Below, one piece after another: positions 2,844 through 23,555 of a stretch of 23,621 bases of DNA. The stretch covers positions 1 through 23,621 of IMG/VR virus record IMGVR_UViG_3300029787_000337; one strand, written 5' to 3'. A program made the position numbers and the translations under genes. Every line of letters begins with the position of its first letter. The stretch's first letter is position 1. This DNA is from a virus. The notes beneath the pieces were generated by a model, which did not search any database, was not told the DNA's origin, and was given only the letters and a program-made list of their open reading frames with translations.

Positions 2844-2845
2844 AA

Positions 2846-4608: not shown

Positions 4609-5073
4609 ATGGCAGTAATATCTTACAAAGATAACAAACGTACAACAAGAACCACACAAGCATCGCAGGTGTTTAAAGGATTTTCTACACAGGGCAGAGA
4701 ATTTTTGGACTCCAAGTTGTATGATATTGAATTGGTAAAACAGGATCTATTAAATCATTTCAACATCCGAAAGGGGGAAAAGTTAGAAAATCCAGAATTT
4801 GGCACCGACATATGGAACTATCTGTTCGATCCATTGGATGATGAAACAAAAAACGCTGTAATTAGTGATGTTGAATCAGTTGTAAACTATGATCCTCGAG
4901 TCACACTCGATCAAATTGAAGTGCAAGAATTTGAACAAGGGTTGTCTGTAAAAATGACTGTTTTATACATTGGTTACGCTATTGGTGAGACCATCAATCT
5001 GCTATTCGATTCCGAACAAGGTTTATTGCAAGGCCCGGGACAATTTTTCAGTGCTTCCTCCGGAAGTTATTAA
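4609..5073 (+). CDS. 25: Baseplate wedge subunit gp25
   Basis: A 154-residue member of the gp25/GpW-like (TssE-like) family. This protein sits at the wedge-hub junction and begins the sheath. The diagnostic core is 'LVKQDLLNHFNIRKGEKLENPEFGTDIWNYLFDP' (residues ~42-75), equivalent to the family's 'G.r...P.fG..l...lF' signature. It is followed by an acidic helix (LDDETKNAVISDVESVV) and a sheath-like beta pair (VEFEQGLSVKMTVLYIGYAIGE region). It is slightly longer than T4 gp25 (132 aa), with a basic, Thr-rich N-terminus of ~25 residues and a Ser-rich end. In T4 gene 25 is in a different cluster (with 26, 51, 27-29, 48, 54); here it sits between PAAR and gene 6. The start at 4609 gives the best N-terminus and lies 6 nt after TTAAATA. 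Confidence 0.9.
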   Translation: MAVISYKDNKRTTRTTQASQVFKGFSTQGREFLDSKLYDIELVKQDLLNHFNIRKGEKLENPEFGTDIWNYLFDPLDDETKNAVISDVESVVNYDPRVTLDQIEVQEFEQGLSVKMTVLYIGYAIGETINLLFDSEQGLLQGPGQFFSASSGSY

Positions 5074-5106: not shown

Positions 5107-8100
5107 ATGGCATCCACCACGAGACAAAATACTCTATTGGCCAACACAGTGTGGCAAAAACTGTACAGGACTTTTAAACAAGCTGACTTCAAGTCATATG
5201 ACTTTGACACCATAAGACGTACACTTATTGATTACCTACAGTTGAATTACCCAGAGTCCTTCAATGACTTTATAGAATCTTCAGAGTATGTGGCACTCAT
5301 TGACATGATTGCCTACGTGGCACAATCTATTTCATACAGGGTTGATCTAAATGCAAGGGAAAATTTTATTGATCTTGCTGAACGTAAAGAATCAGTGTTA
5401 CGTCTTGCAAGATTGATATCATATCAGTCACAGCGTAACACAGCAGGATCAGGCTTTTTAAAAATTTTATCTGTTACAACAACACAAGATGTTTTTGATT
5501 CCAATGGACAGAACATAGCCAATACTCCTATACTTTGGAACGATCTTACAAACGACAATTGGGAAGATCAATTTAATGCAGTGCTTAATGCCGCACTGCC
5601 AAGAAACCAGTTTATAAACAAGCCAGAACTTAGTGCAACCATATCTGGCATTGCATCACAACTATACCGAATAAATGGGGCTAATCTTGATGTGCCAATT
5701 GTTCCCTTCAGTGAAAACATAAATGGCATCAACATGCCTTTCGAAATAGTTCCTTGTTCATTTGCAAATGAAAGTTTCATATATGAAGAAGCACCAATTC
5801 CTGGCAACTCCATCACATTACTATACAGAAATGACACAAGAGGTTTTGGATCAAACAACACAGGATACTTTTTCCATTTCAGGCAAGGATCACTTAATTC
5901 TCAGGATTTTAGTATCACCAACACAGCGCCGAACACAGTGGTGTCTATTCAAGAAAACAATATTAATAACGATGATGTGTTTTTATACAAACTTGATCAA
6001 AATGGAATCATAGATCAACGTTGGACCAAAGTTCCTGCCATTGTAGGCAACAACATAATTTACAATCAATTAGCAAACAACATATTGAACCAATTTGCAG
6101 TTGTAACCAAGACAAACGATCAAATCGATCTTGTGTTTTCAGATGGAGTATATGGCACCTTGCCACAAGGAAACTTTAGATGTTATTTCCGACAAAGCAA
6201 TGGTTTGACCTACAATATTAACACCACAGACATGCAGAACATACAAGTGTCCTTAGATTATGTCAGCAAAAATGGACAAACCAACACACTTACTTTTTCC
6301 GCAAGTTTACAAAGTAGTGTAACTAACGCCGCAAGATCGCAGTCTGTACAAGAAATCAAAACACAAGCCCCTCAAAGTTATTACACAAACGATAGAGCTA
6401 TATCTGCAGAAGACTATCAAATTTTGCCTTTGACAAAAAACCAATCTATTGCAAAAGTTAAATCACAAGTTAGATCTTCTTCTGGCGTGTCAAGATTTTT
6501 AGATGTGTTAGATCCAACAGGAGTTTATTCTCCAGTAAATGTTGTATCAGATGATGGTTATCTATATCAAGAAGAAGGCACACAAACTTTTGATTTCCAA
6601 TTCACAACTAGGGATGATGTTGAAAAAATAATAAACACCACACTGGCAGATGCATTTACATCGCCTGCATTGAAACAATACTATTATAAAAATTATGGAC
6701 GTATTACAGCACCAGCATCAATTACATGGAACAAAAGCACACAAACCACTAATCAAGTGACTGGTTATTTTAAAGACACTGGCCCGGTGAGTGTTGGCAC
6801 AAGCGTAACAACAAATTTAAAATTTGTCACAAAAGGAGCGTTATTAAAATTTACACCAGTGTCCGGATCACACTTTATGCCACAGTCTGGCACAGTGATG
6901 ACTGGTGCAGGAGGGCATCCAGGATCTGCTGATGTTATTTGGAGTAAAGTTGTATCAGTTGATGGAGATGGATCAAATGGTGGACTGGGAAACTTGTCAG
7001 ATGGCACAGGACCAATAGTTTTAAATGATCTTGTTCCTACAGCTGGCATATTAAGCGAAATAATACCAAACTTTGTTGATAATATTACTGCTACACTATC
7101 AGATTCTATCATTGACAATGTTGTTGAATACAAAGACTTTGGTATTTCATATAATACAAGCAGTGAAACTTGGTCCATTGTTAGCGAAGATAACCTTGGC
7201 AGTGGTACATTTGATCTTAGTCAGCAGGGCGACACCAGCGGTGCAAATCTAGATAATAGTTGGTTGTTTAAGTTTGAAACAAATGGCGTAAGTTACACCG
7301 TGACTTATAGATCATCAGAATACATTTTTGAGTCAGCAACAAAAAATAAGTTTTATTTTGATCCAAATGCAAAAATTGTTGATCCAAAAACAGGCACAAC
7401 AATAAAGGACAAAATAAGAATTGTTAAAAGTAACACAGGGCCTGATTTTGCAACAAGTCTCACATATGATTATGATTGGCAAATAGTGGGCAATGTTACA
7501 GGCACAGATGGATACAATGACACAAGAAAAGTGAAAGTTGGCTTTTTTGATTCTGATGATGATGGCGTCATCGACAATCCAGACCTTTTTACAACGATAG
7601 TTTCACCAACTACAGATGTAAAAGACAAATACGTATTCTTTGAGACTGTGACAGTAAATGGCTTTGATCAAGAAAATGTTATAAGTCAAACAAATTTTTA
7701 TGTTACAAGTCTTTCTACGGATATTACAGATTTTTCTGTATATCCAGACAACCAATTATTTTATTTTCACTCTACAGATACTTTTACCCAATATGATAGC
7801 ACCACCGACACAACATCAACACCAACACAATACAAAGCAAAATTAGGTAGGCAAGATCTAATATACAATTATAGTCACGGTGCAAATAGGAATCGAAGAA
7901 TAGATCCTAGTGTATCAAATATTATTGACTTATATGTTATTACAAAATCATACGACGAATCATTACGCACATGGTTGAGAAACAACCAATCTACGACCAA
8001 GCCTGATGCTCCAACAATATTTTCATTAGAAGATCAGTATCTTGCAACTTTAGATGGATTGAAGTCAGTAAGCGATGAGATAATATTCAATCCTGGACAG

Positions 8101-8622
8101 TATTCATTACTTTTTGGTCCTGGGGCAAACGCAAATTTACAGGCACAGTTTAAGGTGGTCAAAAATCCATTAACCACAGTCAGTGATAATCAAATTAAAT
8201 CTAATGTAATTGCGGCAATAAATGATTATTTTAGGATTGACTTTTGGGACTTTGGCGATACGTTTTACTTTACAGAATTAGCGGCGTACATACACAACCA
8301 ACTAGCGCCTGACCTACTAAGTGTTGTGATCGTACCTGCTCAGACCGCCTCTGGTTTTGGATCATTGTTCCAAGTATTTGCAGAAGACAATGAAATCTTT
8401 ATATCATCAGCAACAGTGGATAACGTTGAAGTAATTAACTCTCTAAGTGCAGAAAAATTAAAAGCAACTGGTACAGTGGTTACAAGTGCTGATGTGGCCT
8501 CAACAACCACCGCTGGCACAGTAGCAACCACTAGCACGGCTTCGACATCAACCAGTACTTCAACCAGCACTGGCACAACGACCACAACAACATCGACGTC
8601 ATCTAGTGGAGGCTATTATTAA
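5107..8622 (+). CDS. 6: Baseplate wedge subunit gp6 (baseplate J-like), enlarged
   Basis: A 1171-residue gp6, the wedge protein whose dimers form the continuous inner ring of the baseplate. The N-terminus (~13-120) has 'FDTIRRTLIDYLQLNYPESFNDF', 'ALIDMIAYVAQSISYRVDLNARENF' and 'DLAERKESVLRLARLISY', the classic gp6 helical region. 'ISAEDYQILPLTKNQSIAKVKS' (~433) is the baseplate-J core. 'LQAQFKVVKNPLTTVSDNQIKSNVIAAINDYF' and 'FWDFGDTFYFTELAAYIHNQLAP' (~1010-1080) match the C-terminal ring domain. T4 gp6 is 660 aa; the extra length is an inserted beta-rich segment (~545-950), which includes an EF-hand-like loop at residues 815-826. The last ~50 residues are a Ser/Thr run. The start lies 6 nt after a TATAAATA promoter with no ribosome binding site. 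The stop overlaps the giant gene's ATG (TAATG). Confidence 0.9.
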   Translation: MASTTRQNTLLANTVWQKLYRTFKQADFKSYDFDTIRRTLIDYLQLNYPESFNDFIESSEYVALIDMIAYVAQSISYRVDLNARENFIDLAERKESVLRLARLISYQSQRNTAGSGFLKILSVTTTQDVFDSNGQNIANTPILWNDLTNDNWEDQFNAVLNAALPRNQFINKPELSATISGIASQLYRINGANLDVPIVPFSENINGINMPFEIVPCSFANESFIYEEAPIPGNSITLLYRNDTRGFGSNNTGYFFHFRQGSLNSQDFSITNTAPNTVVSIQENNINNDDVFLYKLDQNGIIDQRWTKVPAIVGNNIIYNQLANNILNQFAVVTKTNDQIDLVFSDGVYGTLPQGNFRCYFRQSNGLTYNINTTDMQNIQVSLDYVSKNGQTNTLTFSASLQSSVTNAARSQSVQEIKTQAPQSYYTNDRAISAEDYQILPLTKNQSIAKVKSQVRSSSGVSRFLDVLDPTGVYSPVNVVSDDGYLYQEEGTQTFDFQFTTRDDVEKIINTTLADAFTSPALKQYYYKNYGRITAPASITWNKSTQTTNQVTGYFKDTGPVSVGTSVTTNLKFVTKGALLKFTPVSGSHFMPQSGTVMTGAGGHPGSADVIWSKVVSVDGDGSNGGLGNLSDGTGPIVLNDLVPTAGILSEIIPNFVDNITATLSDSIIDNVVEYKDFGISYNTSSETWSIVSEDNLGSGTFDLSQQGDTSGANLDNSWLFKFETNGVSYTVTYRSSEYIFESATKNKFYFDPNAKIVDPKTGTTIKDKIRIVKSNTGPDFATSLTYDYDWQIVGNVTGTDGYNDTRKVKVGFFDSDDDGVIDNPDLFTTIVSPTTDVKDKYVFFETVTVNGFDQENVISQTNFYVTSLSTDITDFSVYPDNQLFYFHSTDTFTQYDSTTDTTSTPTQYKAKLGRQDLIYNYSHGANRNRRIDPSVSNIIDLYVITKSYDESLRTWLRNNQSTTKPDAPTIFSLEDQYLATLDGLKSVSDEIIFNPGQYSLLFGPGANANLQAQFKVVKNPLTTVSDNQIKSNVIAAINDYFRIDFWDFGDTFYFTELAAYIHNQLAPDLLSVVIVPAQTASGFGSLFQVFAEDNEIFISSATVDNVEVINSLSAEKLKATGTVVTSADVASTTTAGTVATTSTASTSTSTSTSTGTTTTTTSTSSSGGYY
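7549..7584 (+). other. EF-hand-like calcium loop in gp6 insertion
   Basis: Residues 815-826 of gp6 read D-S-D-D-D-G-V-I-D-N-P-D. This fits the DxDxDGxIxxxD/E loop of EF-hand and dockerin-like calcium sites, with Asp at positions 1, 3, 5 and 12, Gly at 6 and Ile at 8. It is a single loop within a beta-rich segment, so a structural Ca2+ site is more likely than a paired EF-hand. Confidence 0.55.
8466..8619 (+). repeat. Thr/Ser low-complexity tail of gp6
   Basis: The last ~50 residues of gp6 are almost all Thr and Ser with a few Ala/Gly/Val, ending SSSGGYY. The DNA is made of near-repeated AC-rich triplets (ACA, ACC, ACT, TCA, ACG, TCG). Synonymous codons are mixed, so it is not a clean microsatellite. 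GGAGG at 8608-8612, the ribosome binding site of the next gene, is embedded in its final codons. Confidence 0.8.
8608..8612 (+). promoter_or_regulatory. Shine-Dalgarno of the giant gene (GGAGG)
   Basis: GGAGG lies 9 nt before ATG 8622 inside the last codons of gene 6. It is the strongest ribosome binding site in the window. Together with the TAATG overlap it fixes the start of the 4330-codon gene. Confidence 0.8.
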
Positions 8623-11600
8623 TGAGTAAGTCAACTAGATCAAGTTCAAAATTATTACCTGAAATTTTCCAAACAGAAAAAAATAAAAGGTTTATCAACT
8701 CTACATTAGATCAGCTTATCGAACCAAGTGTGCTTGAAAGACTTAGTGCATACGTAGGACAAAAGTATCGTCCTTCTTACAAAACTTCTGATGTATATGT
8801 TGATGAGTCAACAGATCAAAGACAAAGTTATCAACTTGAACCGACTGTGGCATACAAATCGGATGGAAAAACAGTTGATTTTGCATCACAATACATCGAC
8901 GCTGTAAATGAAGTTGCGGCACAGGGCGGATCTTCACTCAAACATGATAGACTTTGGGAACAAGAATCATATGCATATGCACCACCAATTGACCATGACA
9001 AGTTTGTGAACTACAGACAGTACTATTGGATATCAAACAATCTTACTCCTATCACCTTGGTGCTTGGATCTGGAACTACCTCAACTATAGGTGTTACCAA
9101 CAATGCACAGGGTGCCTACGTGTTTTCAAATAAAGTAAATCAGGATAATCCCGACATAATTGTGTACAGGGGAAGCACATACAAGTTTGATATCAATGCT
9201 CCTGGACATCCATTTTATATCAAAACTCAATATGGCACAGGCAGTGGTGATCAATTTGAATCAACATATGTAGAAAACAATGGCGTTGCAGAAGGGACAG
9301 TCACATTGAAAGTGCCCGCTAATGATTCCTCATCTAATGTTGATAATGTTTTATTCTATCAATGTGGTAACCACATTGCTATGAAGGGTAGAATAATAAT
9401 AAAAGACCTTGAACTAGAAAGTTTTGACCCTGGAGAAGCCATTGAAGGTTGTAAAAGTTTCACAGACGCCACAGGATTCGAGCTAACTGACACTGTAAAT
9501 GTACAAATTACGTCAGGATCAACATCCACATATCTTAACAAAAAATATTTTGTAGATGGAGTAGGAGACAGTATCACTTTAACAGACATATCACAACATG
9601 AAGTGGTGGAATCATATGGTACAGAGACAGGCCAAATATTTGATGCTAATGGCACAGAAGGATTTGATACTGTTGGATTTGACAACACAACTAGTCAAAG
9701 CACAACTTTGGATTATTGGACCATTAATCGGGCATCACAAGATCTAAATGCTTGGTCAAGAGCAAACAGGTGGGTACACATTGATGCAATTAAAGCCACA
9801 GAAAAAAAATTAAACATAAGCATCAAAGTTACTGAAGGCATCAGGGCTAAACGTCCTATAATTGAATTTATACCAAATCTTGAACTCTTTAATCATGGCA
9901 ACACAGGTAGACTAATAGATGTCATTGACACCGAAACAACAGATGCATTGTCCAAAGTGCAAGGTGAAGAAGGTTATTTTGCAGATGGCACAGCGTTAAG
10001 AAAAGGCGATCTAGTAATTTTTACTGCTGATCCCAACCAACAAAGTAGAATATTCCAAGTTGATTTTGTCCAGGTATCTAATGAATTGGACTCTGGTACA
10101 GTATTACAATTAGTGTTAAATGAATCTTTTTTAGCATCCGAAATGCTAAGTGTCACAGCCAGACGAGGCAACAATAAAGGCGTAGTCTATCATGTAGAGG
10201 ACAATGTTTGGATCAAGTCACAACAAAAAACAGAAATCAATCAAAAGCCACTTTTTGATGTCTTTGATGATGATCATGTATCCCTCGGTAACTTAACAAC
10301 TTATGTGTCAAGTAATTTTGTAGGATCAACATTATTTGAGGTGGCAACAGACACAACACAAGGCACACCTGACACTGTGTATGGTACAAACGTAATTTAT
10401 GAAAGACTTGGACTAATAAATGATATAAGAATTAATGATACTTTTAATTCATCCAAATTTCAATATGTTGAAGAAGGAGTAATCATTGAAAAACCAATTA
10501 GACAATATCATCTACACAAATACACAAAAGGCTCGACAAATCTAATTAAATTAAACAACTGGCAAAAACATAAAGTTGTTGATAGTCAAAAAATTATAAG
10601 AACTTATGAATCAAATATTAAAGAACAATTTTTTGAAATAGATCATTATAATGATGCTTCAAATCTAAGTGATCTTATAGTGCAGGTTATACTTAATGGA
10701 GATGTTATTACGGCATACACTACCGAGACAGTCAACAATCGATTGTACGTCAAGACTGATGAAGTTATTGACCCAGGAAATATTATCACGGTCAAGTGTC
10801 ATAGTAAGACTGGTGCTCCATCTGGAAAAGGATTTTTTGAAGTGCCATTATCTCTACAAAGAAACTCCAAAAATAATAATTTTGAAAAATTTACTTTGGG
10901 AGATATTATTAAGCATTACAGATTAGGCACGTATGAAAATAGTAGCTTCACTGGCACATCAATTGGTCCAAATAATTCAAGAGATTTGTCTGACATGTTT
11001 GCATATGGTTCTTTGATTATGCAACATTCAGGATCGGACGTACTGGCACACATTTTACTTAAAGATGATGTTCTTAATCTAGCTAAAGCCATGCGGTACA
11101 GTGCAAGAGAATATGAAAAATACAAACAAAGTTTAATTGAAAGAAGTAAAACAATATCTTTAGACGCAGATATTGATGCTAATTTAGACGAATTAATTGC
11201 TTTAATAAATGCAAATAAAAATGACTCAATGGCTTTTGCAAACACAGACATGATTGGATACAGCAATGACAAAACAGTTAATTCTTACACAGTTGTTGAT
11301 TCACAAATTGTAAACTATCCAATAAGTCAAAAACATAATTTAAACACATTGTCAAAGCGGGCAGTGTATGTGTATCTAAACAAAATTCAACTTATACACG
11401 GCAGTGATTATGAATTCACTGACATCACTGATTCATCCAATCAGCATGGCGTAGAAATAAAAACTAATTTGTCTACAAATGATGTTATAAAAATTGTTGA
11501 ATACGATGCAACCAATAGTAGTTTTGTGCCTGACACTCCTGCCAAACTTGGACTGGCTCCGGCCTTTGAACCAAGCAAATTTAAAGATGACACATATCAG

Positions 11601-14600
11601 ACCGATGATGGACTAGGACTGGATGTGATTAAAGGACATGATGGATCCATAACAATAGCATATGGAGATTATAGGGATGACATTTTATTAGAATTCGAAA
11701 AAAGGATATACAATAACATAAAAGTAAGTTTTGATCCAGACGCAATCAATATAGATTATGGTTTTTATAGGGACAATGAGTATACTAGCAAAGAAGTAAA
11801 TGATCTTTTGGCAAGAGACTTTTTTTCCTGGTCCGGAACAAATGCAATTGATTATACTACCAATGACACATATGACGCAGCTAATGACTTCACTTGGAAC
11901 TATTCATCGTATACAAACGCAGTAGATCAAACTAGACTACCTGGGCATTGGCGTGCAATATACAAACAATGGTATGATACAGACACTCCACATTTGACTC
12001 CTTGGGAAATGTTTGGCTTCTCTGTGAAACCAGATTGGTGGGATACACGCTATGGCCAAGCACCATATACAAGTGGTAACTTGTTACTGTGGAATGATGT
12101 TGCCATTGGAAATATAGCAGAAGGATCGAGAAAAGGACATTACACAAGATATGCTCGTGGATCATCGATATATGACAGCATTCCAGTCACCGAAGCAGGA
12201 AAACTTGCCACTCCTGGCAACGCAGGTATATTGGGTGCATCAACCATACTTCAAAGGAACCAACAAGCCAATTGGGAGTATGGCGATTATGGCCCGCCAG
12301 AAACAGCATGGATAAGATCGTCAAGTTATCGATTTGCTGAACAAGTTGCAAAATTTTTAGCAAAGCCTGGAAAATATGCTGGTATACTTTTTGATGTTAG
12401 CAGGATCAACAAAAACACATTAGGCCAATATGTATATAATGGTCTTTATAGACAACCAGTAAATGATTATTTCTTGCCTTCATCTACTGTATCAACTGTA
12501 GGGTATATTAATGTGCTGTTTGATTATATCAAGCATCTTGGATATATACCTTCAACATATGTTGCGAATAGATTAGACAACATATCTGTACAATTATCCT
12601 ACAAGCTAGGAGGCTTCACAAACAAGGACAACATACAAATATCAGTTGGTAGTGTGTCACCTCAAAGCACATCACAAGGCGTGTTTTTACCACAAGAAAA
12701 TTTTGATATATTGTTATACAAAAGTGCACCTATTGTTAGTGCAAACTACAGTGGTGTTATTGTACAAAAGACTGCAAATGGATTCAAAGTATCAGGATAT
12801 TCTAATTATACAAGAACATTTAACTATTTTGCCCCAAAAAAATTCAATGACTTTAATCTTGTTAGAGTGGGAGCAACCACTGAATCTTTTTCACAATGGC
12901 AGCCAGGTGGATTTTACAATCAAGGCATAATTGTAAAAAATGGTGGAATATTTTATCGTGCCTTACAAAGCGTAAGTTCAGGACAAAGTTTTGATGAATC
13001 AAATTGGAGCGAAATAGGAGCGGCCCTTCCACTAAAAGGTGGAGTAGCGGTGAGAAAATACAAAAACTATGACACAGTTGCAACCACTATACCATATGGC
13101 ACAGAATTTAAAAACACACAGGAAGTTGCTGACTTCCTTTTCGGATACAATGAATATCTAAAAGATCAAGGATTTGTATTTGATAATTTTGTAAAAGAAC
13201 TAAGTCAGCCTGCAAACTGGGAACTAAGTGTTAAAGAATTTTTATTTTGGACAACACAAAATTGGAGCAACGATGCAGTGATTACTTTATCGCCAGCAGC
13301 TGAATCTTTAAAATTCAAAAGAGAAAACACAATTGGAGACGATCTCACAGATACTGATCAATTTTATACAGTTTTACAACAGGATGGTTTACCGATAAGT
13401 CCATATAATTTAGCCACCAAAAGGCAAGATGGTGAATTTGTAATAAGTGTAAATCCTACAGAGGACGGAGTATATAATGCAGATATAAGAGCAATACAAA
13501 AAGAACATTTAATTTTACTGGATAATGCTTCACAGTTTAGTGATGTCATATTTGATCCTTCCTTGGGAAATAGACAGGATAGAGTAAAACTAGTTGGTTT
13601 CAGAACAGCAAATTGGAATGGTGATTTGTATGCTCCTGGTTATATTTTAGATCAAGCAAAAATAAGTGACTGGCAACAATATAAGGATTATAGAATTGGT
13701 GAGAATGTTGTGCATCAAGGAAAAAATTACACTGCAATTAGTAATCATACCAGTGGAGAAAATTTTGTAGGGACCAATTGGTCAGTAAAAGATGAATTGC
13801 CTAAACAACAAATGTTGCCCAACTGGGACGCAAAAGCTGAAGCATTCCGTGATTTTTATTCTTTAGATTCTGATAACTTTGATGCAGAACAGCAGAGATA
13901 TGCCCAGCATCTTATAGCATATCAACAGAGAGATTATTTTAACGACCTTGGTCTAGAAGAACTTACACAGTTTAAATTCTATCAAGGAATGTTAAAAGAA
14001 AAAGGCACCATATCACCAATACAAAAATTTAAGACACAACCGCAAACCGGGCAAACTGTATCATACAATTTGTTTGAAGATTATGCGTTTAGGGTAGGCG
14101 AATTTGGTGGACACAGAACACAACAAGAATTTGCTTTTACAGTTGATGAATCCAAGCACAGGAAAAATAGGTTGGTGTACAATATTCAAGAATCAAACAA
14201 AGATGATACTGAAACTGTACTAAACTTGAATGAACGTGCAAATGATCTTTTTATAAAGCCTTATGCATTTAGTGGTGCGCCTTTTATCATGTATGACTAT
14301 GATAATCATCAAAACACTACACAAGCAATTTTTAAATTTCCAGTTGCTGGATATGTTTTACCTGCTCAGGCCACAAAAACAGTATTCAACGAAAGTGAAT
14401 TACTTTTAGTTGATGCAACAGATCTAAAAGAAGGAGACACCATATGGATAGCAAATACACTAAGTGGTGATTGGGACATTAGGCGTGTAAATTCATTGAA
14501 TATAAACTCCAATATTTACAAATCCTTTGATAACACATTGCAAATATCAACCAACACTCCTCACGGATTAAACACTGATGATTATGTTGTGATTACAGAT

Positions 14601-17600
14601 ACTAATGATTCTATTGATGGCATATATCAAGTAAAACTTACTGACAGCACAGATGATCTGACCACTTTCAGTGTTGACTACAGCGGTACCTTTGATAGCA
14701 CAAATGCCATAGGAGTTGTATCTAAACTAAACAGTATAAGAATCAACGACATTGATGATCTTGAAACAATTACTCCTACAAAAGGATTTGCACTGGGGGA
14801 TTATGTGTATGTGGATAACAATTACACAAAACAATATCCTGACAACGGTTTATGGAAAGTGTATCAAAAATCTGCTAATACAGATTATTCCATTGGAGAA
14901 CAAACTTTTGCTGATGAAAGAGAGGCAGATGGAGAAATAGCAACGTCAGTTGCAGTCGACACTGACAATCTATATTTGGCGGTTGGTGCGCCAGGGGCAA
15001 ACAAAGTATTTGCATATCTAAGAAATACCACGGATGAAAATTTCACACTTAGAAATGAAATTGCATTAGACATTGGCAACTCAGCAGGAGGAGACAGGTT
15101 TGGTGAAAGTTTAACCATTACCAAAGATGGCTCCAGAATATTTGCTGGATCGCCTAGTACTGGAGACATTGTAAAATTAACTTTGACTGCAACAGCAAGA
15201 GTATACACTCGTGGCACAACTGTTATAGGTTCGGAAACTGGAGCCACTGGCACCATTATAGATGTTGATTGGGATACTGATGTAATTTGGGTAAAAAACA
15301 CAGGCAACACAGACTTTATTGCAGAGCCATTAGATATAGGTGATTCATCATCGACTATAACTGTTACAAAAGTTCAAGGCTCAGACAACCTTTCAACTGG
15401 CGCTGTGCATTGGATCAATAGAGATGCTAGATCAAGTTATGGCATTAACCAGTCAATTGTTCCACCAGAAGTTGAGGCGGGCGGCGAGTTTGGAAAATCA
15501 GTTAGTGTGTCTGGAGATGGCACATATTTGGCTGTAGGCGCACCAGGATCACCTGATGATTCAGTTACAAACGATCGTGGCGCAGTGTTTATATTCAAGT
15601 ACGCTAAAGATGGATCTTCAGCAAGATATGATCTTCACCAAACATTGATATCAGATGCAACAAGTCAAATCGATTCAAGATTTGGAGCCAATGTACAATT
15701 TGCGGAAGATGGCAATACTTTGGTGATATCTGCTCCTGATTATGATAATGACAGCACAACAGCCAATGCTGGCACAGTGTATGTGTACAGACTTAAAAAT
15801 GATACATTTTATGAACATGAAAAAATTACCCCAAATTTAATAGATGATGTGCGTTTTGGCACAGGACTTGCAATAAGTGAAAATGGCACAGACTTGATGA
15901 TAGGTGCGCCAAGATATACAGGCACACTTGGAGACCAAGGTGCAGTTTACCATTACATTGCAAAAAGTTCAACTCATGTTGCAGATGGAAGCACCACTGA
16001 ATTTACTGCAGGATTCGATATTGATCATTCCTATCATGTGGGTGTGTTTGTTGACAACACAGATTATCATTTAGTAAATGGTGACAGTAGCACAACCCCT
16101 AATTTTACTACAGATGGCACCAGCAACATAATAACTTTTGGTGTGGCTCCTGCATCAGGATCTAGTATTACAATACAACAGTATGTCATACAAGACACTA
16201 TTACTTCAGTCAAGCCAGAGACAAATGCACATTTCGGAAACAATTTAGCAATTAGAAACAATGCATTATTAATTCAAAGTAAGCTGGGTGATGCACAATT
16301 GATAACAACATTTGATAGCTTATCGGCAGATGGGTCCACTGTGTTAGTTGAAACAACTTTTGATAAAAACACAACAAAATTTGTAGCGCCACAGAGTGAC
16401 AGTGGACAAGTTTTTGTTTACAACAAACTAGATACTGAATTCAAGTATGTACAAAACTTACCAACTAGTGTCACATTACAGGAAAATGCAAACTATGGTG
16501 GTGCACTAGCATTATCGCAACTCACAGCTTACATTGGCGCTCCGAAATTAAACACAACTTTAACAAACAGTGGAAGATTATTCCTATTTGAAAAACCAAC
16601 TTCAGACCTAGGATGGAAAACAGCATACACGCAACCAGATGTTGTTAGAATAAAAAATGTTAACAATAGTTTCTTGTATAATAAAGATACAGGGCAAACA
16701 ATTAGTAATATTGAGTTAATTGATCCTGCAAAAGGCAAATTATTTGGAGAAATACAAAAAAACCTAAATTATGTCACTGCTTTCGATCCAGCAAATTATT
16801 ACTCTTGGGACGATGATCATAATGACGAATTTTGGTTAGATATATCACAGTTTAAATATTTTTGGTATGAACAAGGATCATTAGATGAAAAACTAAGTAA
16901 CTGGGGCAAGTTACATCCAAGCAGTATAGTTGAAGCAAACGTATGGATTGAAAGTGACATTACACCTACGCAGTATAATGCTTTATCTGGCACAAACGAA
17001 GGTGAAAGCCAAAACATATCAGGAACAGCAAGAACAAACTTTGTAACAAAACGTGTATTTGATGGCAATCGATCAACATTTGTAAACAAATATTATTATT
17101 GGGTTGCTAATAGAACAACAGTGGACGGCAGTAACACAGTGTCTGGATTGGAAATTGCCAATGCCATACAAAATCCATCTTTGTTTACAAATAATTTTGG
17201 CGCTGTAATTGGTGATAGGGCAGTGTTATTAAATTTGGATAGAACGCAACTTGAACAAGACAGGATAGCATTTAGGTTTGAAAACACCACAGTCAACGAA
17301 CAATTAGAAAAACACACCGAACATGTGTTAATTTCAAAAGATGACACCAACTCGGAAATCCCCAAACAGCTCAGTGATAAATTTTTTGATAGCTTGATAG
17401 GTTTTGACTATAACGGTAGATCCGTGCCTGATGTCAGTCAACCTGAAGGACTGAGATATGGTTCACTTAATAGGCCAAGACAGAGTTGGTATAAAGATAG
17501 AGTGGGAGCTTTGAAAATTATTGTTCAATTTGTTAATGACGAATTATCCAAAAAACCATTTGCTACAACAAAGGATCTAACAAAGTTTTTAGAAAAAACT

Positions 17601-20600
17601 CCATTGCCTAGTTTGACTTTGGGAGAATACGACAGAGCAGTAGACACTGATACGGATCTTACATATGTAAACACTACAGAATTTGATGCTGGCTATAAAA
17701 TATTAGTGTTGGCTGATACAAATGTTGCTGGAGGATGGTCCGTCAATGAATGGAGTGGCACAGAATTTTCACGCACATCACAACAAACATACGATACCAC
17801 TGATTACTGGGACTACAGTGATTGGTATGCAGATGGTTACAGTGCTGACACCGTAGCAAATCACGTGTTAGATAATGAACGCACAAGGTTGAATGGCACC
17901 TATAATGTAGGTGAAATTGTAAAAGTTAAAGCATCGTATGATGGCGAATTTAGAATATACATAAAAACATCTTCCAATTGGGACGTAATAGGAATAGAGG
18001 ATGGAACAATAAAATTATCCACAAAATTGTATGATTATGTTAACAATCAAGTTGGTTTCGGCGCTGATGCATATGGCACCTCCTTGTATGACGCAGAGGC
18101 TGTAACAGAACTAAGAAACATACTTGAAGGAATCAAAGCACTTGCAACTGATGAAGATGCACTGTTGTTTAACAAATTATTTTTCTTAGGAGTCCGTATT
18201 GCACAGCAAGAGCAGAAAGACATAGATTGGGTATTCAAAACCTCGTTTGTTAAATTAATAAATACATATTCAAATCTTGAACAACTTCGTGAATTTCAAA
18301 TTGATTCTTCCGATGCAGTGCAAAAATTTTTAGATGAAGTGTTGCCTTTCAAAACAAATGTAAGAGAAGATGTAACTGTATACAATAATGAAGATATTTT
18401 TGAGGGAGACATTACTGACTTTGACAATAAAACATATTTTGATAAAACAATCAATGAATACATAACTCCAACACTCAGACAAGATGACAGCACTTTTCCA
18501 GATGTTTATGACAGCAATCCATGGAAACAATATGCGGAAAACTTTAAGTTCAGCATTGGATCGATTGTAGTTGATAACACTGGCAGTGGATATACTACTA
18601 CTCCACGTGTGTTAATTACAGGAGGCGGCGGCTCTGGAGCAACTGCGACAGCAGTCATAGGTGATGGCAAAGTTACAAGCATCACATTAACTAATGCTGG
18701 TTCAGGATATTTCACCACTCCAACAGTAACACTGGAAGGTGGCGGTGGGTCGGCAGTTACTACAACAGCACTTGCACATGCCGAACTTAAAAACAACAAA
18801 GTAAGATCGATTGACAGCATGATAAAATTTGATAGGGTCAATAGCCTGAAAGAAATATCAAATAGCACCATAGCAGATTGGACAGCGTTTACATCATATA
18901 GTGCTGGTGCAAATATTAGGCATCTCAATGAAATATACAATGTGGTTAGTGATTTTACAAGTGGACAAACATTTGAAAATAATGTTGTTTTAAATGATTC
19001 TTCATCAGTAACAAGCAGTGCGCCTATCAAGAGATGGACTGCCACTGATAGGATCTACAGTTACTATTCTCCTACAGCTGGCATGACAGGTCTTATCGGT
19101 GATGGATCAACCACTTTAAATGCATATAGTCAATTAATGACTGGCATTGAATATCCTGGAGTAAAAATATCAGGACTTTCATTTGCATCTTCAACTGGAT
19201 TTGATCTTACTGGATATGACTTGGTAGAATACGATACAAACGTTATTGTTACTGAGGATAGTGATCCAGAAAATTTAGATCAAATATTAGACTCAAAAAC
19301 TTTCACCACTGAATTAGGAAGACGTGCAGAAGACATAAATGTGTCAGGCGATGCATTCATTTCAGAATATTCTGCTCACGCTCCTGAGGAAGTCCTGCCA
19401 GGTGGTTCATTTGACACAATGGATCTCAAAGTTTTTGCAAAACAAACTGATGGTGCATCTGATATCAGTAGGAAAAATTTTTATGGAGATGGATCCACAA
19501 CTGTGTTTACAACTCCTGAGCTAGGATCTGTAGATGGATTAAGAGTGTTTAAAAACAACGTGTTCCAAAGAAGAGACACAGAATACAGTTTGGATTATGC
19601 AAATAGGAAAATAACGTTTACCACTGCTCCATCTATAAATGACATAGTGTCTATCACTGCAATCAGAGTTGCAACCGACAACTTGCTAGGCAGTTTTGAA
19701 TTTATAGCACAGGATTCTGCAAACACATTCGCCACTGGGATAAACTTTGACATTGTCACACAAAGTTATGTACTAGTGAATGGTGTAAGGCAAACTGTAA
19801 GTTTGCAATTAAACAGTGATGCAGTCACTACTGATGTCAAATTTACAACAGCACCATCAATAGGTGATCAAGTGCAGGTGTACCTTTTTGATCTTCCAGC
19901 TGGTACCAAAGCGTTTAGTGAAGTAATATCCACAACATACAGTGGTATACAAACTGACTCCACAGAATTCCAAATACAAATTGATCCTATAGCATCCGTT
20001 ACTGGGCCATATCACCAAAAAGTAATTGTTGAAGGAGTTAGTGGATCAGATGGCAGCAATCGATACAGACTACAACCGCCACAGGTGGCTTATTATGAAG
20101 GAGATGGTTCCACAACCGATTTCCTAGTGCCAGATGAACCTCAACCAGGAACATCTGCAGATATCACAAACACTGAAGTGTGGAAAAATGGCATAGCACT
20201 AACTGGTGCTACACAATTTTTTATGAGTACTACATTAGGTGGCAAAAGAACTGTTACAATTACAAATGCTCCAGCTGACGGAGATGTAATTGCTGTGGTG
20301 TTCAAGTTCGGACACGACTATGAATTGGATGGATCCGGCAAACTAATTTTACAGTCTGGATGGAACGGTGTTGACTCAACAATAGATGCAGAAAGTATAG
20401 TTGTAACAACATTCTCAAATCATGACACACAAAAACTTCGCACTGAAGTGTTTAAAGGATCGGATGGATCACTTAACATACAAATCCAAGACAGAGGCAC
20501 CTTAGGAGTTACTTTAAATATTTTTGAAGAGGACTTTGGTGATGTGTCTGCCACTGGTGATTCTGTGACCGGCACAGCACAAGACAGAGGTACAATTATA

Positions 20601-21614
20601 GACAGTGATGTTATTGAATCTAATCTAGGCCTGATCACAGAGAATACATTTTCCACATCAGTTGTTGACAACGTCACTGCATCCAGAGACCTGGGGGACC
20701 TTGGCGTCTTGACAACAGCTTCAGAAGATTTTGGTTCTGTGTTGACAACTGTTTTAGTCCCTAACATTGTGGCTAAAAGATATAGGCTGAGTCAAACTCC
20801 ATTGCATTCAAGTTATGTTTTTGTAGCTGTTAACAAAATAAATTTAACAGCAAACCACGATTATAGACTTGAAGACGATGAAGTGGTAATACCACTAAGA
20901 AACTTAACAGACAGTGATGTAATATTAATTACATATGTGGGTGGAGCTGTAAGTAAACCTGCTATAGCATACAGGATATTCAAAGATATAATCAATAGAT
21001 ATCACTATAAACGTATAAGTGTGGCACATTCTACATTTTTAACTGCAGGTGTTCCAATAGATGCAACAGAAATAAATGTATCAGACGCATCTAAACTAGG
21101 AGACCCACAACTCTCAACAAACACTCCAGGAATAATATTCATAGGAACAGAGCGTATTGCATATTTTGACAAAGATGGCAACACATTGAAAAGATTGTTT
21201 AGAGGTACACTGGGAACTGGTGTGCAGGCACACAGCAAAAATGCAAAGGTTGTAGATGCAAGTGCTGTTCAAAACATGCCATACACAGACACAGAAAGCA
21301 CCACAAGTTTCACAAGTGACGGAAGCACAGTATCATTTGCTCTTTCATATCTTCCTATCAGCAAAAATGAACTTACTGTATTGATAGGAGGCGAAGTTAC
21401 AAATTTGTACAGCATCGGCTCTGATTCGACCACTGCAATTATTTTAGATACAGCACCAGCGTCAGGAGTTTTAATACGTGTGGTAAGGAAAACAGGTTCT
21501 GTGTGGTACAACCAAGGTTCTTCAAGTGCCGCAGATGGACTTGGCCTACAACAGTCTCAAAATGTTAATATAGCATTCCTGCAAGATAAGCCTGCAGATC
21601 TAAGTTTGATTTAA
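8622..21614 (+). CDS. Giant baseplate wedge protein, gp7-like with multiple inserted adhesive/beta domains
   Basis: One open frame of 4330 residues in the gene 7 position (T4 gp7 is 1032 aa). Blocks I recognise from marine T4-like gp7/large wedge proteins: N-terminus 'LPEIFQTEKNKRFINSTLDQL' and 'PPIDHDKFVNYRQYYW' (1-140); 'NAWSRANRWVH' (~375); 'DTPHLTPWEMFGFSVKPDWW' (~1118); 'EFLFWTTQNW' (~1540); 'YQQRDYF...QFKFYQGMLKEKGT' (~1765-1795); 'WLDISQFKYFWYEQGSLD' (~2740); 'IFIGTERIAYFDKDGN' with 'LFRGTLGTG' (~4170-4205). Between these lie a cupredoxin-like domain (~174-262), three chitin-binding-like modules (~1424, ~1684, ~3420), an HGL/FCCH-like beta unit (~1968-2040), a seven-repeat FG-GAP propeller (~2108-2660), GxGY repeats (~3311-3387), five DGST modules and short FG/LG repeats (~3970-4043). 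Role: wedge scaffold with peripheral binding surfaces. It may combine functions of T4 gp7, gp8 and gp10; that is inference. No signal peptide or membrane segment was seen. Confidence 0.75.
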   Translation: MSKSTRSSSKLLPEIFQTEKNKRFINSTLDQLIEPSVLERLSAYVGQKYRPSYKTSDVYVDESTDQRQSYQLEPTVAYKSDGKTVDFASQYIDAVNEVAAQGGSSLKHDRLWEQESYAYAPPIDHDKFVNYRQYYWISNNLTPITLVLGSGTTSTIGVTNNAQGAYVFSNKVNQDNPDIIVYRGSTYKFDINAPGHPFYIKTQYGTGSGDQFESTYVENNGVAEGTVTLKVPANDSSSNVDNVLFYQCGNHIAMKGRIIIKDLELESFDPGEAIEGCKSFTDATGFELTDTVNVQITSGSTSTYLNKKYFVDGVGDSITLTDISQHEVVESYGTETGQIFDANGTEGFDTVGFDNTTSQSTTLDYWTINRASQDLNAWSRANRWVHIDAIKATEKKLNISIKVTEGIRAKRPIIEFIPNLELFNHGNTGRLIDVIDTETTDALSKVQGEEGYFADGTALRKGDLVIFTADPNQQSRIFQVDFVQVSNELDSGTVLQLVLNESFLASEMLSVTARRGNNKGVVYHVEDNVWIKSQQKTEINQKPLFDVFDDDHVSLGNLTTYVSSNFVGSTLFEVATDTTQGTPDTVYGTNVIYERLGLINDIRINDTFNSSKFQYVEEGVIIEKPIRQYHLHKYTKGSTNLIKLNNWQKHKVVDSQKIIRTYESNIKEQFFEIDHYNDASNLSDLIVQVILNGDVITAYTTETVNNRLYVKTDEVIDPGNIITVKCHSKTGAPSGKGFFEVPLSLQRNSKNNNFEKFTLGDIIKHYRLGTYENSSFTGTSIGPNNSRDLSDMFAYGSLIMQHSGSDVLAHILLKDDVLNLAKAMRYSAREYEKYKQSLIERSKTISLDADIDANLDELIALINANKNDSMAFANTDMIGYSNDKTVNSYTVVDSQIVNYPISQKHNLNTLSKRAVYVYLNKIQLIHGSDYEFTDITDSSNQHGVEIKTNLSTNDVIKIVEYDATNSSFVPDTPAKLGLAPAFEPSKFKDDTYQTDDGLGLDVIKGHDGSITIAYGDYRDDILLEFEKRIYNNIKVSFDPDAINIDYGFYRDNEYTSKEVNDLLARDFFSWSGTNAIDYTTNDTYDAANDFTWNYSSYTNAVDQTRLPGHWRAIYKQWYDTDTPHLTPWEMFGFSVKPDWWDTRYGQAPYTSGNLLLWNDVAIGNIAEGSRKGHYTRYARGSSIYDSIPVTEAGKLATPGNAGILGASTILQRNQQANWEYGDYGPPETAWIRSSSYRFAEQVAKFLAKPGKYAGILFDVSRINKNTLGQYVYNGLYRQPVNDYFLPSSTVSTVGYINVLFDYIKHLGYIPSTYVANRLDNISVQLSYKLGGFTNKDNIQISVGSVSPQSTSQGVFLPQENFDILLYKSAPIVSANYSGVIVQKTANGFKVSGYSNYTRTFNYFAPKKFNDFNLVRVGATTESFSQWQPGGFYNQGIIVKNGGIFYRALQSVSSGQSFDESNWSEIGAALPLKGGVAVRKYKNYDTVATTIPYGTEFKNTQEVADFLFGYNEYLKDQGFVFDNFVKELSQPANWELSVKEFLFWTTQNWSNDAVITLSPAAESLKFKRENTIGDDLTDTDQFYTVLQQDGLPISPYNLATKRQDGEFVISVNPTEDGVYNADIRAIQKEHLILLDNASQFSDVIFDPSLGNRQDRVKLVGFRTANWNGDLYAPGYILDQAKISDWQQYKDYRIGENVVHQGKNYTAISNHTSGENFVGTNWSVKDELPKQQMLPNWDAKAEAFRDFYSLDSDNFDAEQQRYAQHLIAYQQRDYFNDLGLEELTQFKFYQGMLKEKGTISPIQKFKTQPQTGQTVSYNLFEDYAFRVGEFGGHRTQQEFAFTVDESKHRKNRLVYNIQESNKDDTETVLNLNERANDLFIKPYAFSGAPFIMYDYDNHQNTTQAIFKFPVAGYVLPAQATKTVFNESELLLVDATDLKEGDTIWIANTLSGDWDIRRVNSLNINSNIYKSFDNTLQISTNTPHGLNTDDYVVITDTNDSIDGIYQVKLTDSTDDLTTFSVDYSGTFDSTNAIGVVSKLNSIRINDIDDLETITPTKGFALGDYVYVDNNYTKQYPDNGLWKVYQKSANTDYSIGEQTFADEREADGEIATSVAVDTDNLYLAVGAPGANKVFAYLRNTTDENFTLRNEIALDIGNSAGGDRFGESLTITKDGSRIFAGSPSTGDIVKLTLTATARVYTRGTTVIGSETGATGTIIDVDWDTDVIWVKNTGNTDFIAEPLDIGDSSSTITVTKVQGSDNLSTGAVHWINRDARSSYGINQSIVPPEVEAGGEFGKSVSVSGDGTYLAVGAPGSPDDSVTNDRGAVFIFKYAKDGSSARYDLHQTLISDATSQIDSRFGANVQFAEDGNTLVISAPDYDNDSTTANAGTVYVYRLKNDTFYEHEKITPNLIDDVRFGTGLAISENGTDLMIGAPRYTGTLGDQGAVYHYIAKSSTHVADGSTTEFTAGFDIDHSYHVGVFVDNTDYHLVNGDSSTTPNFTTDGTSNIITFGVAPASGSSITIQQYVIQDTITSVKPETNAHFGNNLAIRNNALLIQSKLGDAQLITTFDSLSADGSTVLVETTFDKNTTKFVAPQSDSGQVFVYNKLDTEFKYVQNLPTSVTLQENANYGGALALSQLTAYIGAPKLNTTLTNSGRLFLFEKPTSDLGWKTAYTQPDVVRIKNVNNSFLYNKDTGQTISNIELIDPAKGKLFGEIQKNLNYVTAFDPANYYSWDDDHNDEFWLDISQFKYFWYEQGSLDEKLSNWGKLHPSSIVEANVWIESDITPTQYNALSGTNEGESQNISGTARTNFVTKRVFDGNRSTFVNKYYYWVANRTTVDGSNTVSGLEIANAIQNPSLFTNNFGAVIGDRAVLLNLDRTQLEQDRIAFRFENTTVNEQLEKHTEHVLISKDDTNSEIPKQLSDKFFDSLIGFDYNGRSVPDVSQPEGLRYGSLNRPRQSWYKDRVGALKIIVQFVNDELSKKPFATTKDLTKFLEKTPLPSLTLGEYDRAVDTDTDLTYVNTTEFDAGYKILVLADTNVAGGWSVNEWSGTEFSRTSQQTYDTTDYWDYSDWYADGYSADTVANHVLDNERTRLNGTYNVGEIVKVKASYDGEFRIYIKTSSNWDVIGIEDGTIKLSTKLYDYVNNQVGFGADAYGTSLYDAEAVTELRNILEGIKALATDEDALLFNKLFFLGVRIAQQEQKDIDWVFKTSFVKLINTYSNLEQLREFQIDSSDAVQKFLDEVLPFKTNVREDVTVYNNEDIFEGDITDFDNKTYFDKTINEYITPTLRQDDSTFPDVYDSNPWKQYAENFKFSIGSIVVDNTGSGYTTTPRVLITGGGGSGATATAVIGDGKVTSITLTNAGSGYFTTPTVTLEGGGGSAVTTTALAHAELKNNKVRSIDSMIKFDRVNSLKEISNSTIADWTAFTSYSAGANIRHLNEIYNVVSDFTSGQTFENNVVLNDSSSVTSSAPIKRWTATDRIYSYYSPTAGMTGLIGDGSTTLNAYSQLMTGIEYPGVKISGLSFASSTGFDLTGYDLVEYDTNVIVTEDSDPENLDQILDSKTFTTELGRRAEDINVSGDAFISEYSAHAPEEVLPGGSFDTMDLKVFAKQTDGASDISRKNFYGDGSTTVFTTPELGSVDGLRVFKNNVFQRRDTEYSLDYANRKITFTTAPSINDIVSITAIRVATDNLLGSFEFIAQDSANTFATGINFDIVTQSYVLVNGVRQTVSLQLNSDAVTTDVKFTTAPSIGDQVQVYLFDLPAGTKAFSEVISTTYSGIQTDSTEFQIQIDPIASVTGPYHQKVIVEGVSGSDGSNRYRLQPPQVAYYEGDGSTTDFLVPDEPQPGTSADITNTEVWKNGIALTGATQFFMSTTLGGKRTVTITNAPADGDVIAVVFKFGHDYELDGSGKLILQSGWNGVDSTIDAESIVVTTFSNHDTQKLRTEVFKGSDGSLNIQIQDRGTLGVTLNIFEEDFGDVSATGDSVTGTAQDRGTIIDSDVIESNLGLITENTFSTSVVDNVTASRDLGDLGVLTTASEDFGSVLTTVLVPNIVAKRYRLSQTPLHSSYVFVAVNKINLTANHDYRLEDDEVVIPLRNLTDSDVILITYVGGAVSKPAIAYRIFKDIINRYHYKRISVAHSTFLTAGVPIDATEINVSDASKLGDPQLSTNTPGIIFIGTERIAYFDKDGNTLKRLFRGTLGTGVQAHSKNAKVVDASAVQNMPYTDTESTTSFTSDGSTVSFALSYLPISKNELTVLIGGEVTNLYSIGSDSTTAIILDTAPASGVLIRVVRKTGSVWYNQGSSSAADGLGLQQSQNVNIAFLQDKPADLSLI
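9139..9408 (+). other. Cupredoxin-like domain with full type-1 copper ligand set (in giant protein)
   Basis: Residues ~174-262 of the giant protein: 'IIVYRGSTYKFDINAPGHPFYI' followed ~50 residues later by 'VLFYQCGNHIAMKGRIII'. The ligands are H196, C248, H251 and M254. C-x2-H-x2-M is the spacing of amicyanin (C92, H95, M98), and the His within 'GHPF' takes the place of the first ligand. Similar beta-sandwich modules with 'YYC..H..M' occur in marine phage and bacterial surface proteins. Whether copper is bound is not shown by sequence. Confidence 0.6.
12888..13016 (+). repeat. Chitin-binding-like (CBM5/12-type) module 1
   Basis: Residues ~1424-1465 read 'SQWQPGGFYNQGIIVKNGG', then 'IFYRAL', then 'SSGQSFDESNW'. 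This is the W...Y..G..V...g..Y.a.....SG..F....W layout of short carbohydrate-binding modules. It is the first of three such copies in the same protein. Confidence 0.55.
13662..13790 (+). repeat. Chitin-binding-like (CBM5/12-type) module 2
   Basis: Residues ~1681-1723: 'SDWQQYKDYRIGENVVHQGK', 'NYTAIS', 'HTSGENFVGTNW'. W1684 and W1720 bracket the module. This is the copy closest to the family consensus and lies ~260 residues after module 1. Confidence 0.6.
14944..16600 (+). repeat. FG-GAP (integrin-alpha-like) seven-repeat beta-propeller in giant protein
   Basis: Seven propeller-type repeats can be counted. Repeat 1 is 'DNLYLAVGAPGANKVF' (~2113). Repeat 2 is 'DRFGESLTITKDGSRIFAGSP' (~2156). 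Repeat 3 is 'GEFGKSVSVSGDGTYLAVGAP' (~2287). Repeat 4 is 'SRFGANVQFAEDGNTLVISAP' (~2352). Repeat 5 is 'VRFGTGLAISENGTDLMIGAP' (~2409). Repeat 6 is 'AHFGNNLAIRNNALLIQS' (~2536). Repeat 7 is 'ANYGGALALSQLTAYIGAP' (~2622). Two extra beta units are inserted, one between repeats 2 and 3 ('TGATGTIIDVDWDTDVIWVK') and a DGST module between 5 and 6. The propeller sits between conserved wedge blocks. Confidence 0.75.
18553..18780 (+). repeat. GxGY-P / GGGG tandem beta repeats in giant protein
   Basis: Residues ~3311-3387 hold two copies of V-x-N-x-GSGY-xTTP-x-V-x(3-4)-GGGGS-x-(A/V): 'NTGSGYTTTPRVLITGGGGS' and 'NAGSGYFTTPTVTLEGGGGS'. They are joined by 'GDGKVTSITL'. Such repeats form surface beta strands in phage tail proteins. 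Confidence 0.75.
18867..18992 (+). repeat. Chitin-binding-like module 3 (degenerate end)
   Basis: Residues ~3416-3457: 'ADWTAFTSYSAGANIRHLNE', 'IYNVVS', 'FTSGQTFENN'. W3420, the Y..G..I pattern and SGQ.F match modules 1 and 2, but the closing Trp is replaced (ENN). It lies ~1700 residues downstream of module 2. Confidence 0.5.
19480..21505 (+). repeat. DGST beta modules and short FG/LG repeats in C-terminal part of giant protein
   Basis: Three full modules begin 'YGDGSTTVF' (~19483), 'EGDGSTTDFLV' (~20098) and 'TSDGSTVSFALS' (~21312). Each continues with 'v.Vf.nG......Y.l.....itft.APa.GD.i.v'. Two others lie upstream (~15978 inside the propeller and ~19098). Between them, 20529-20752 has a run of short repeats centred on (F/R/L)G followed by V/I/L (EDFGDVSATG, QDRGTIID, SNLGLITE, RDLGDLGVLTT, EDFGSVLTT). 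These are modular beta domains typical of phage fibers. Confidence 0.65.
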
Positions 21615-22846: not shown

Positions 22847-22853
22847 GTGCAAT

Positions 22854-22907: not shown

Positions 22908-23555
22908 ATGGACGAATCCAAGCAAAGTCAAACACAAACAAATGTGAAGCCTGATGAAAAACAAGGCATTGATATACAAGGATACATCAAAATATTTGAT
23001 CCCAAATCAGGTGATGTGTATGTAGACAAAAAGAATGCCATACATTATGAAAATTTTTCATTAGCACTTGCTAACTCTATTGCAAATAGATCCACTGGAT
23101 TTATTGAAGAGATGCATTTTGGTAATGGCGGCACATCTGTAGACAACACAGGAATTATTACATATTTGACTCCCAATTCCACAGGTGCAAATGCAAATCT
23201 TTACAACAAAACTTATTATAAAAGCGTAAATGACCAGTCATCACTGAACACAGATACTACAAGAAACAAAATTACAATAGCACATGTTGATGGCACAACA
23301 TACACTGATTGTATTGTGTCATGTCTTTTGGATTTTGGGGAACCCGCAGGACAACAAGCGTTTGACAACACAACCACAGTTAATGACACATTTGTGTTTG
23401 ACGAAATTGGCTTGTTTTCATGGGAAGGCACAGCAGGCACAGGTAACCTTTTGACACACGTAATTTTTCATCCTGTGCAAAAATCGTTGAATAGATTAAT
23501 ACAAATAGATTACACAATTAGGATACAGAGTTTAACAAACTTTGTTGATGTATAG
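22908..23555 (+). CDS. Conserved T4-like marine phage virion structural protein
   Basis: A 215-residue protein with a polar, Lys/Gln-rich N-terminus (~20 residues) followed by a compact domain: 'IDIQGYIKIFDPKSGDVYV', 'NAIHYENFSLALANSIANRS', 'IEEMHFGNGGTSVDNTGIITYL', 'TYTDCIVSCLLDFGEPAGQQ', 'FDEIGLFSW', 'HVIFHPVQKSLNRLIQIDYT'. I recognise this pattern from structural proteins in tail/baseplate clusters of marine T4-like phages, but I cannot assign a T4 gene number. T4 gp9/gp11-type wedge-pin or fiber-connector roles are possible from location only. There is no signal peptide or membrane segment. Transcription would start at the CTAAATA motif 6 nt upstream of the ATG. The next gene begins 20 nt after its stop. 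Confidence 0.7.
   Translation: MDESKQSQTQTNVKPDEKQGIDIQGYIKIFDPKSGDVYVDKKNAIHYENFSLALANSIANRSTGFIEEMHFGNGGTSVDNTGIITYLTPNSTGANANLYNKTYYKSVNDQSSLNTDTTRNKITIAHVDGTTYTDCIVSCLLDFGEPAGQQAFDNTTTVNDTFVFDEIGLFSWEGTAGTGNLLTHVIFHPVQKSLNRLIQIDYTIRIQSLTNFVDV

Follow-up and report, generated by a model that had tools for sequence, protein, structure and literature searches.

In phage T4 the gene of the wedge protein gp7 (phrog_964, 1032 aa) follows that of gp6 and precedes those of the outer baseplate. Giant proteins in this gene slot are already known from cyanophages, in which the protein annotated as gp7 and encoded after gp6 comprises 5195 aa in P-SSM2 and 4067 aa in Bellamy, while the S-RSM4 version has about 3515 aa. 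These cyanophage "baseplate wedge initiators" (phrog_2885) contain a recognisable gp7 core with the signature LPE...SKG and are followed by gp8. According to a published view VrlC replaces gp7 in pelagimyophages and cyanomyophages (PMC7029224); contrary to that view, the records of P-SSM2 and Bellamy still list a gp7, and it has the core signature. Likewise already known is phrog_10938, a PHROG of 3324 positions described as "virion structural protein". Named members of this very common family are RaK2 ORF070, 121Q gp582, GAP32_230, phAPEC6 gp245, PA5oct gp355, Atu_ph07 gp180 and SCTP-2 gp140, and most members are annotated just as hypothetical or virion structural. Here we add a map of core and inserted modules, the assignment of gp10-type modules, and ten complete relatives without recognisable gp7 and gp8.

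The stretch of DNA analysed, referred to as the window, is the 23,621-base viral record IMGVR_UViG_3300029787_000337 of IMG/VR. The following genes were identified:

318..617, plus strand: gp53-like wedge protein (PHROG and Pfam profile matches)
621-2843: virion protein, part of the upstream set
2846..4342, plus strand: gp5-like spike/hub protein (profile matches)
4342..4599, plus strand: PAAR spike-tip protein (profile matches)
4609..5073, plus strand: gp25-like wedge protein (PF04965, E 1e-9)
5107..8622, plus strand: gp6-like baseplate wedge protein P0002, 1171 aa (phrog_10646 baseplate wedge, E 3e-291; T4 gp6 family phrog_219, E 2e-13)
8622..21614, plus strand: giant virion protein of the phrog_10938 family, 4330 aa (open reading frame, profile match and relatives)
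21611-22852, minus strand: tail-fibre-like gene encoding an Mtd N-terminal domain; it separates the giant gene from the conserved virion gene that comes next
22908..23555, plus strand: 215-aa protein of phrog_11259 (no function), whose relatives in other phages are also encoded beside the giant

The genes upstream of the giant gene thus form a baseplate set (gp53-like, virion protein, gp5-like, PAAR, gp25, gp6-like). Since the giant gene lies directly 3' of the gp6-like gene, it occupies, compared with the T4 map, the slot of T4 gene 7, as the original prediction had stated. The match of the gp6-like protein to T4 gp6 extends over 313 columns (hhalign 67%). This protein is itself enlarged, with 1171 aa vs 660 in T4, and its C-terminal tail is rich in Ser/Thr.

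The giant gene is a single ATG-to-stop frame of 4330 codons without interruption, so that its predicted coordinates and its length, over four times that of T4 gp7, were confirmed. Its ATG overlaps the stop codon of the gp6-like gene by one base (TAATG), and a GGAGG ribosome site lies upstream. The G+C content along the frame is 33-40% with no internal step. An open frame of 13 kb at this G+C content is not due to chance, and the 4330-aa frame is real.

By hmmscan the giant protein matches phrog_10938 in four stretches (E 2.1e-291, 971 bits). A tblastn search with the first 1000 residues retrieved 83 phage records, in which the long matches were exclusively to large-genome myoviruses and the cyanophage matches were confined to the cupredoxin stretch. 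Relatives are present in every jumbo phage searched of the RaK2-like and related group. They are encoded after gp6 in PA5oct (3857 aa), RaK2 (3326 aa), Atu_ph07 (4449 aa), Phosso (4555 aa), Vibrio phage 2.275.O (3771 aa), GAP32 (3341 aa), 121Q (3323 aa), XaC1 (3332 aa) and fENko-Kae01 (3342 aa). Ten annotated jumbo-phage relatives were inspected, and in nine of them the giant directly follows gp6; the exception is SCTP-2, whose giant of 3807 aa is preceded by another, undescribed giant ORF and not by an annotated gp6. With this preceding ORF (L009:6630-15920, about 3096 aa, annotated hypothetical) the gp6 position of SCTP-2 is likewise taken by a giant gene.

When viral contigs were scanned for the hallmark PWEM[LF]GF, at least 597 confirmed relatives or loci were found. 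For the analysis 85 contigs were used, 80 of them among the hallmark-scan matches listed and five found first. Of these 85 contigs, 81 also encode a relative of gp6 and 40 encode relatives of the phrog_11259 protein; in the relative L006 a similar gene lies directly 3' of the giant gene. The phrog_11259 product was also considered as gp8, gp9 or gp11 and gave no profile match to any of these. The giant is a member of a widespread family of very large jumbo-phage virion proteins that had been catalogued before.

The original prediction had also considered that the frame might join separate genes through assembly error. Complete frames on the 85 contigs amount to 46 and range from 3508 to 5011 aa, independent contigs are collinear with our frame (one 76.5% identical over 2912 residues, another 48% over 4171), and many of the relatives come from isolate genomes. 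This excludes the possibility of an artefact for all practical purposes.

Evidence for the presence of these proteins in virions comes from mass spectrometry, which reports presence and not location in the particle. PA5oct gp355 was detected in virions according to its record note. Seventeen peptides were reported for phAPEC6 gp245 (381.9 kDa; PMC7247149) and 21 for CBB_236, a structural protein listed beside the wedge protein CBB_237 (PMC5259590), both of which we assign to the family on the grounds of gene order and size rather than sequence. The homologue of fENko-Kae01 was detected by proteomics of filtered material, which is not conclusive for virion presence (PMC11218385). The jumbo-phage members of phrog_10938 hence have in common the family, the giant length, mostly the slot after gp6 and, where tested, the occurrence in virions. 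The proteins of RaK2 and 121Q are about 1000 aa shorter than the one described here and nearly lack the propeller region; compared with the RaK2-like proteins, the present member adds an FG-GAP propeller, a CBM and three XD-like modules.

Aligning 81 near-complete members shows which parts are shared. Core blocks were found in 78-81 of them and accessory blocks in 41-73, and the near-universal core covers residues 1-145, 361-900, 960-1410, 1490-1660, 1750-2000 and 2690-3300. The conserved core of the protein amounts to about 2200 aa, into which cupredoxin, chitin-binding CBM5/12 and FG-GAP beta-propeller modules are inserted:

8622..9056, plus strand: N-terminal conserved core, residues 1-145, starting with a gp7-type LPExF helix (similarity below significance)
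9063..9422, plus strand: cupredoxin-like insertion, residues 148-267 (AlphaFold model and PDB search, Z 8.7, rmsd 2.2 over 99 residues)
9702..12851, plus strand: conserved core, residues 361-1410, with the hallmark PWEM[LF]GF (alignment of members)
12879..13031, plus strand: CBM5/12-like insertion a, residues 1420-1470 (Pfam E 0.0045, below cut-off)
13089..13601, plus strand: conserved core, residues 1490-1660 (alignment)
13659..13811, plus strand: CBM5/12 insertion b, residues 1680-1730 (Pfam E 8e-7, above cut-off)
13869..14621, plus strand: conserved core with the motif FYxGxIxxKGT, residues 1750-2000 (alignment)
14919..16571, plus strand: FG-GAP beta-propeller insertion, residues 2100-2650 (PF14312, E 9e-22, three stretches)
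16689..18521, plus strand: conserved core, residues 2690-3300 (alignment)
18522..18791, plus strand: glycine-rich GSGYTTTP repeat, residues 3301-3390 (sequence)
18864..19001, plus strand: possible third CBM5/12-like motif, residues 3415-3460 (by eye; no Pfam match)
19455..20426, plus strand: three tandem XD / T4-gp10-domain-3-like modules, residues 3612-3935 (profile comparison)
21294..21575, plus strand: T7 gp17 N-terminal-like module, residues 4225-4318 (PF03906, E 6e-4, below cut-off)

The expectation of conserved blocks with different domains inserted between them is thereby borne out, as is that of a protein in the wedge position with adhesive insertions (cupredoxin, CBM5/12, FG-GAP propeller); the kinship of the blocks to gp7, which the expectation included, was not found. 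The cupredoxin-like domain is present in 67 of the 81 members, and related viral proteins are named YHYH-domain proteins. Its residues H196, C248, H251 and M254 look like a full set of type-1 copper ligands. This C/H/M motif is lost from the aligned copies in the relatives L002 and L006, and a copper site, if there is one, would be unusual in a phage baseplate protein. The equivalent of insertion b in the relative L077 superposes on a domain of the baseplate receptor-binding complex of phage Milano with 0.9 A over 45 residues. The propeller region could be aligned in 68 of the 81 members.

Two AlphaFold models of 1200 residues each are confident (pLDDT 84.7 and 82.0). PDB searches with both, which bear on a gp7/TssG fold of the putative gp6-binding core, gave matches confined to inserted domains, by which the folds of the core are not proven to be new. 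A comparison of the core with PDB sequences by phmmer and hmmsearch revealed nothing meaningful, and no significant match in sequence or structure was obtained between the core and T4 gp7 or any baseplate protein. T4 gp7 is not listed by VIA-align and Foldseek, and its absence there carries no evidential weight. The top Foldseek match of residues 1-1200, 9f4b_FA (gp10 of phage KP1), was left unused (TM 0.05-0.10, rmsd 33 A, probability 0.69). PDB matches to ubiquitin E1 and to a phage endosialidase were traced to a single beta module of L077. The BFVD search returned the giant family; weak matches to the Bellamy wedge initiator and a "Tail protein I" (probabilities 0.28 and 0.41) were not used as evidence.

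By its position the protein would be a gp7, while kinship with T4 gp7 by sequence could not be shown. The gp7 models of Pfam and PHROG (PF21427, PF21428, PF21456, phrog_964) gave no hmmscan match in the giant, and a PHROG scan of the KGT block from 28 members returned no gp7 family. When every segment was compared by hhalign with T4 gp5 to gp12 and gp53, the probability for gp7 stayed below 1%; it reached at most 4.6% when the profiles were those of the gp7 core of T4, phiM12 and cyanophages. As positive controls, jumbo gp6 and T4 gp6 gave 67%, and T4 and cyanophage gp7 96%. The LPE...FYxSKG signature of cyanophage gp7 aligned with the giant in order, with P 0.009-0.03 at best, which is near the top of the decoys and non-significant.

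It is conceivable, though in our opinion rather unlikely, that the giant is a true and extremely diverged orthologue of gp7, in which a 1700-residue insertion splits the gp7 core into two halves, one being the LPExF helix and the other the FYxxxxKGT motif. Both the N-terminal helix and the block with the KGT motif can be aligned to gp7 cores in the expected order, with P values of 0.009-0.07 that lie close to the best decoys and below significance. Order and register are as expected against the gp7 cores of T4, phiM12 and P-SSM2 (mostly P 0.009-0.05). Out of 25 comparisons the KGT element came first for the cyanophage-only profile and for two of the three merged gp7 profiles, and the gene slot is that of gp7. 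However, every score is below significance, the N-terminal match was not reproduced with a T4-only gp7 profile, and a gp7-core search in the PA5oct giant matches just an inserted module.

A fusion of wedge functions with gp8- and gp10-like ones had been suggested by the original prediction from the lack of separate gene 8, 9 or 10 candidates in the window. This lack has little weight alone, because the record is a 23.6-kb fragment and the gp8/9/10 content of the phage's own complete genome is outside its scope. The gp10-like part of the suggestion is supported in part, namely for three C-terminal modules. The C-terminal repeats (residues 3612-3935) match one another at P 1e-9 to 3e-5 and are homologous. 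Two of the three modules match T4 gp10 287-398 above all decoys, namely residues 3815-3935 (hhalign 75%, P 2.5e-5) and residues 3612-3705 (21%, P 1e-3); hmmscan with the Pfam model of gp10 domain 3 alone gave no match in the giant. By profile comparison these modules also correspond to the XD modules of CBA120 TSP4 and RaK2 gp528. The gp8-like part is not supported: neither a gp8 nor a gp9 profile (including PF09215) was detected in any segment of the giant by Pfam scans and hhalign, and in the relatives matches to phrog_438 (gp8) are confined to an inserted module.

A model of the XD-like modules matches RaK2 gp528, gp531, gp532 and gp533, and in addition fibre-sized proteins from other jumbo phages and the cyanophage giant gp7. 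An independent study assigned the XD domains of RaK2 gp528 to T4 gp10 XD3 and suggested that they are platforms at which the tail fibres branch (PMC10253068). Since this class of modules occurs also in tail-fibre genes and in the cyanophage giant gp7, we regard it as a marker of docking modules and not as a fused gene 10. That gp7 has literally been fused with gp8, gp9 and/or gp10 into one chain that takes the place of these proteins is very improbable. The resemblance of the C-terminal modules to T4 gp10 domain 3 would fit such a fusion, as would the result that searches of ten complete relatives revealed no separate gp8. Against it speak, besides the missing gp8 and gp9 matches, the absence of the gp9/10 N-terminal domain and of Gp10_C, the N- and C-terminal domains of T4 gp10, from the giant in Pfam scans, and the fact that fibre genes often contain XD-like modules, whereas only about half of the members carry them. 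In addition, PA5oct encodes a separate Gp10_C protein three genes downstream of its giant, which argues against a whole-gene fusion. The fusion idea holds at the level of modules only.

A T4 gp9/10 N-terminal motif was detected in the G003 record (contig of L087) at 27839-27973 (E 1.7e-8, over the cut-off) within an open frame of 2458 aa, possibly a separate gp9/10-type connector in a relative. The refuting condition set by the original prediction, separate gene 8/9/10 homologues elsewhere, thus gave a mixed answer: relatives encode Gp10_C and this motif separately, but in ten complete relatives a separate gp8 was not found.

We consider it fairly probable that the giant is an outer-wedge scaffold of the jumbo myovirus baseplate, with looped-out domains that touch sugars and C-terminal modules that dock fibres. 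Synteny and virion presence suggest that it would join gp6 in all six wedges, which is the role of gp7 in T4, and the conserved core of about 2200 residues would make the wedge contacts. This reading is favoured by the result that in ten complete relatives no other gp7 or gp8 was found by searches that identify both in T4, P-SSM2 and Bellamy. Judging from domain identity, the optional looped-out cupredoxin, CBM5/12 and FG-GAP propeller domains may touch host or capsule sugars, while the XD-like modules may dock fibres in analogy to RaK2 gp528 and T4 gp10. A scaffold in the wedge slot with exchangeable sugar-binding and fibre-docking modules would be a testable model of an elaborate jumbo outer baseplate in which neither gp7 nor gp8 is recognisable. 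A more far-reaching idea appears unlikely to us, namely that of a one-chain outer wedge in this large jumbo-phage group: a polypeptide whose core fold is unrelated and whose length is 3300-5000 residues would have replaced gp7 and gp8 and would carry a gp10-type fibre platform together with host-binding domains.

Adhesion and XD-like modules are typical of fibre proteins, and the giant might accordingly be a tail-fibre or whisker protein that is encoded beside gp6 by chance and located outside the wedge. This is distinctly improbable: the synteny with gp6 holds across widely diverged phages, the core of about 2200 residues is mixed alpha/beta and not a trimeric fibre repeat, and the fibre genes of RaK2 are located elsewhere.

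With the cyanophage proteins mentioned above the giant shares the slot, the scale and some inserted modules including an XD-like one. The differences are that the jumbo-phage giant has no significant match to the gp7 core and that gp8 does not follow it. Direct BLAST to cyanophage gp7 and gp8 gave short repeat-module matches and nothing more. Giant wedge-slot proteins with module types in common are hence found in two groups of phages, the cyanophages and the RaK2-like jumbo phages. In P-SSM2 gp7 (L104:7006-22593) one XD-like module lies near the C-terminus, and the wedge-slot giants of both groups thus draw on common module types.
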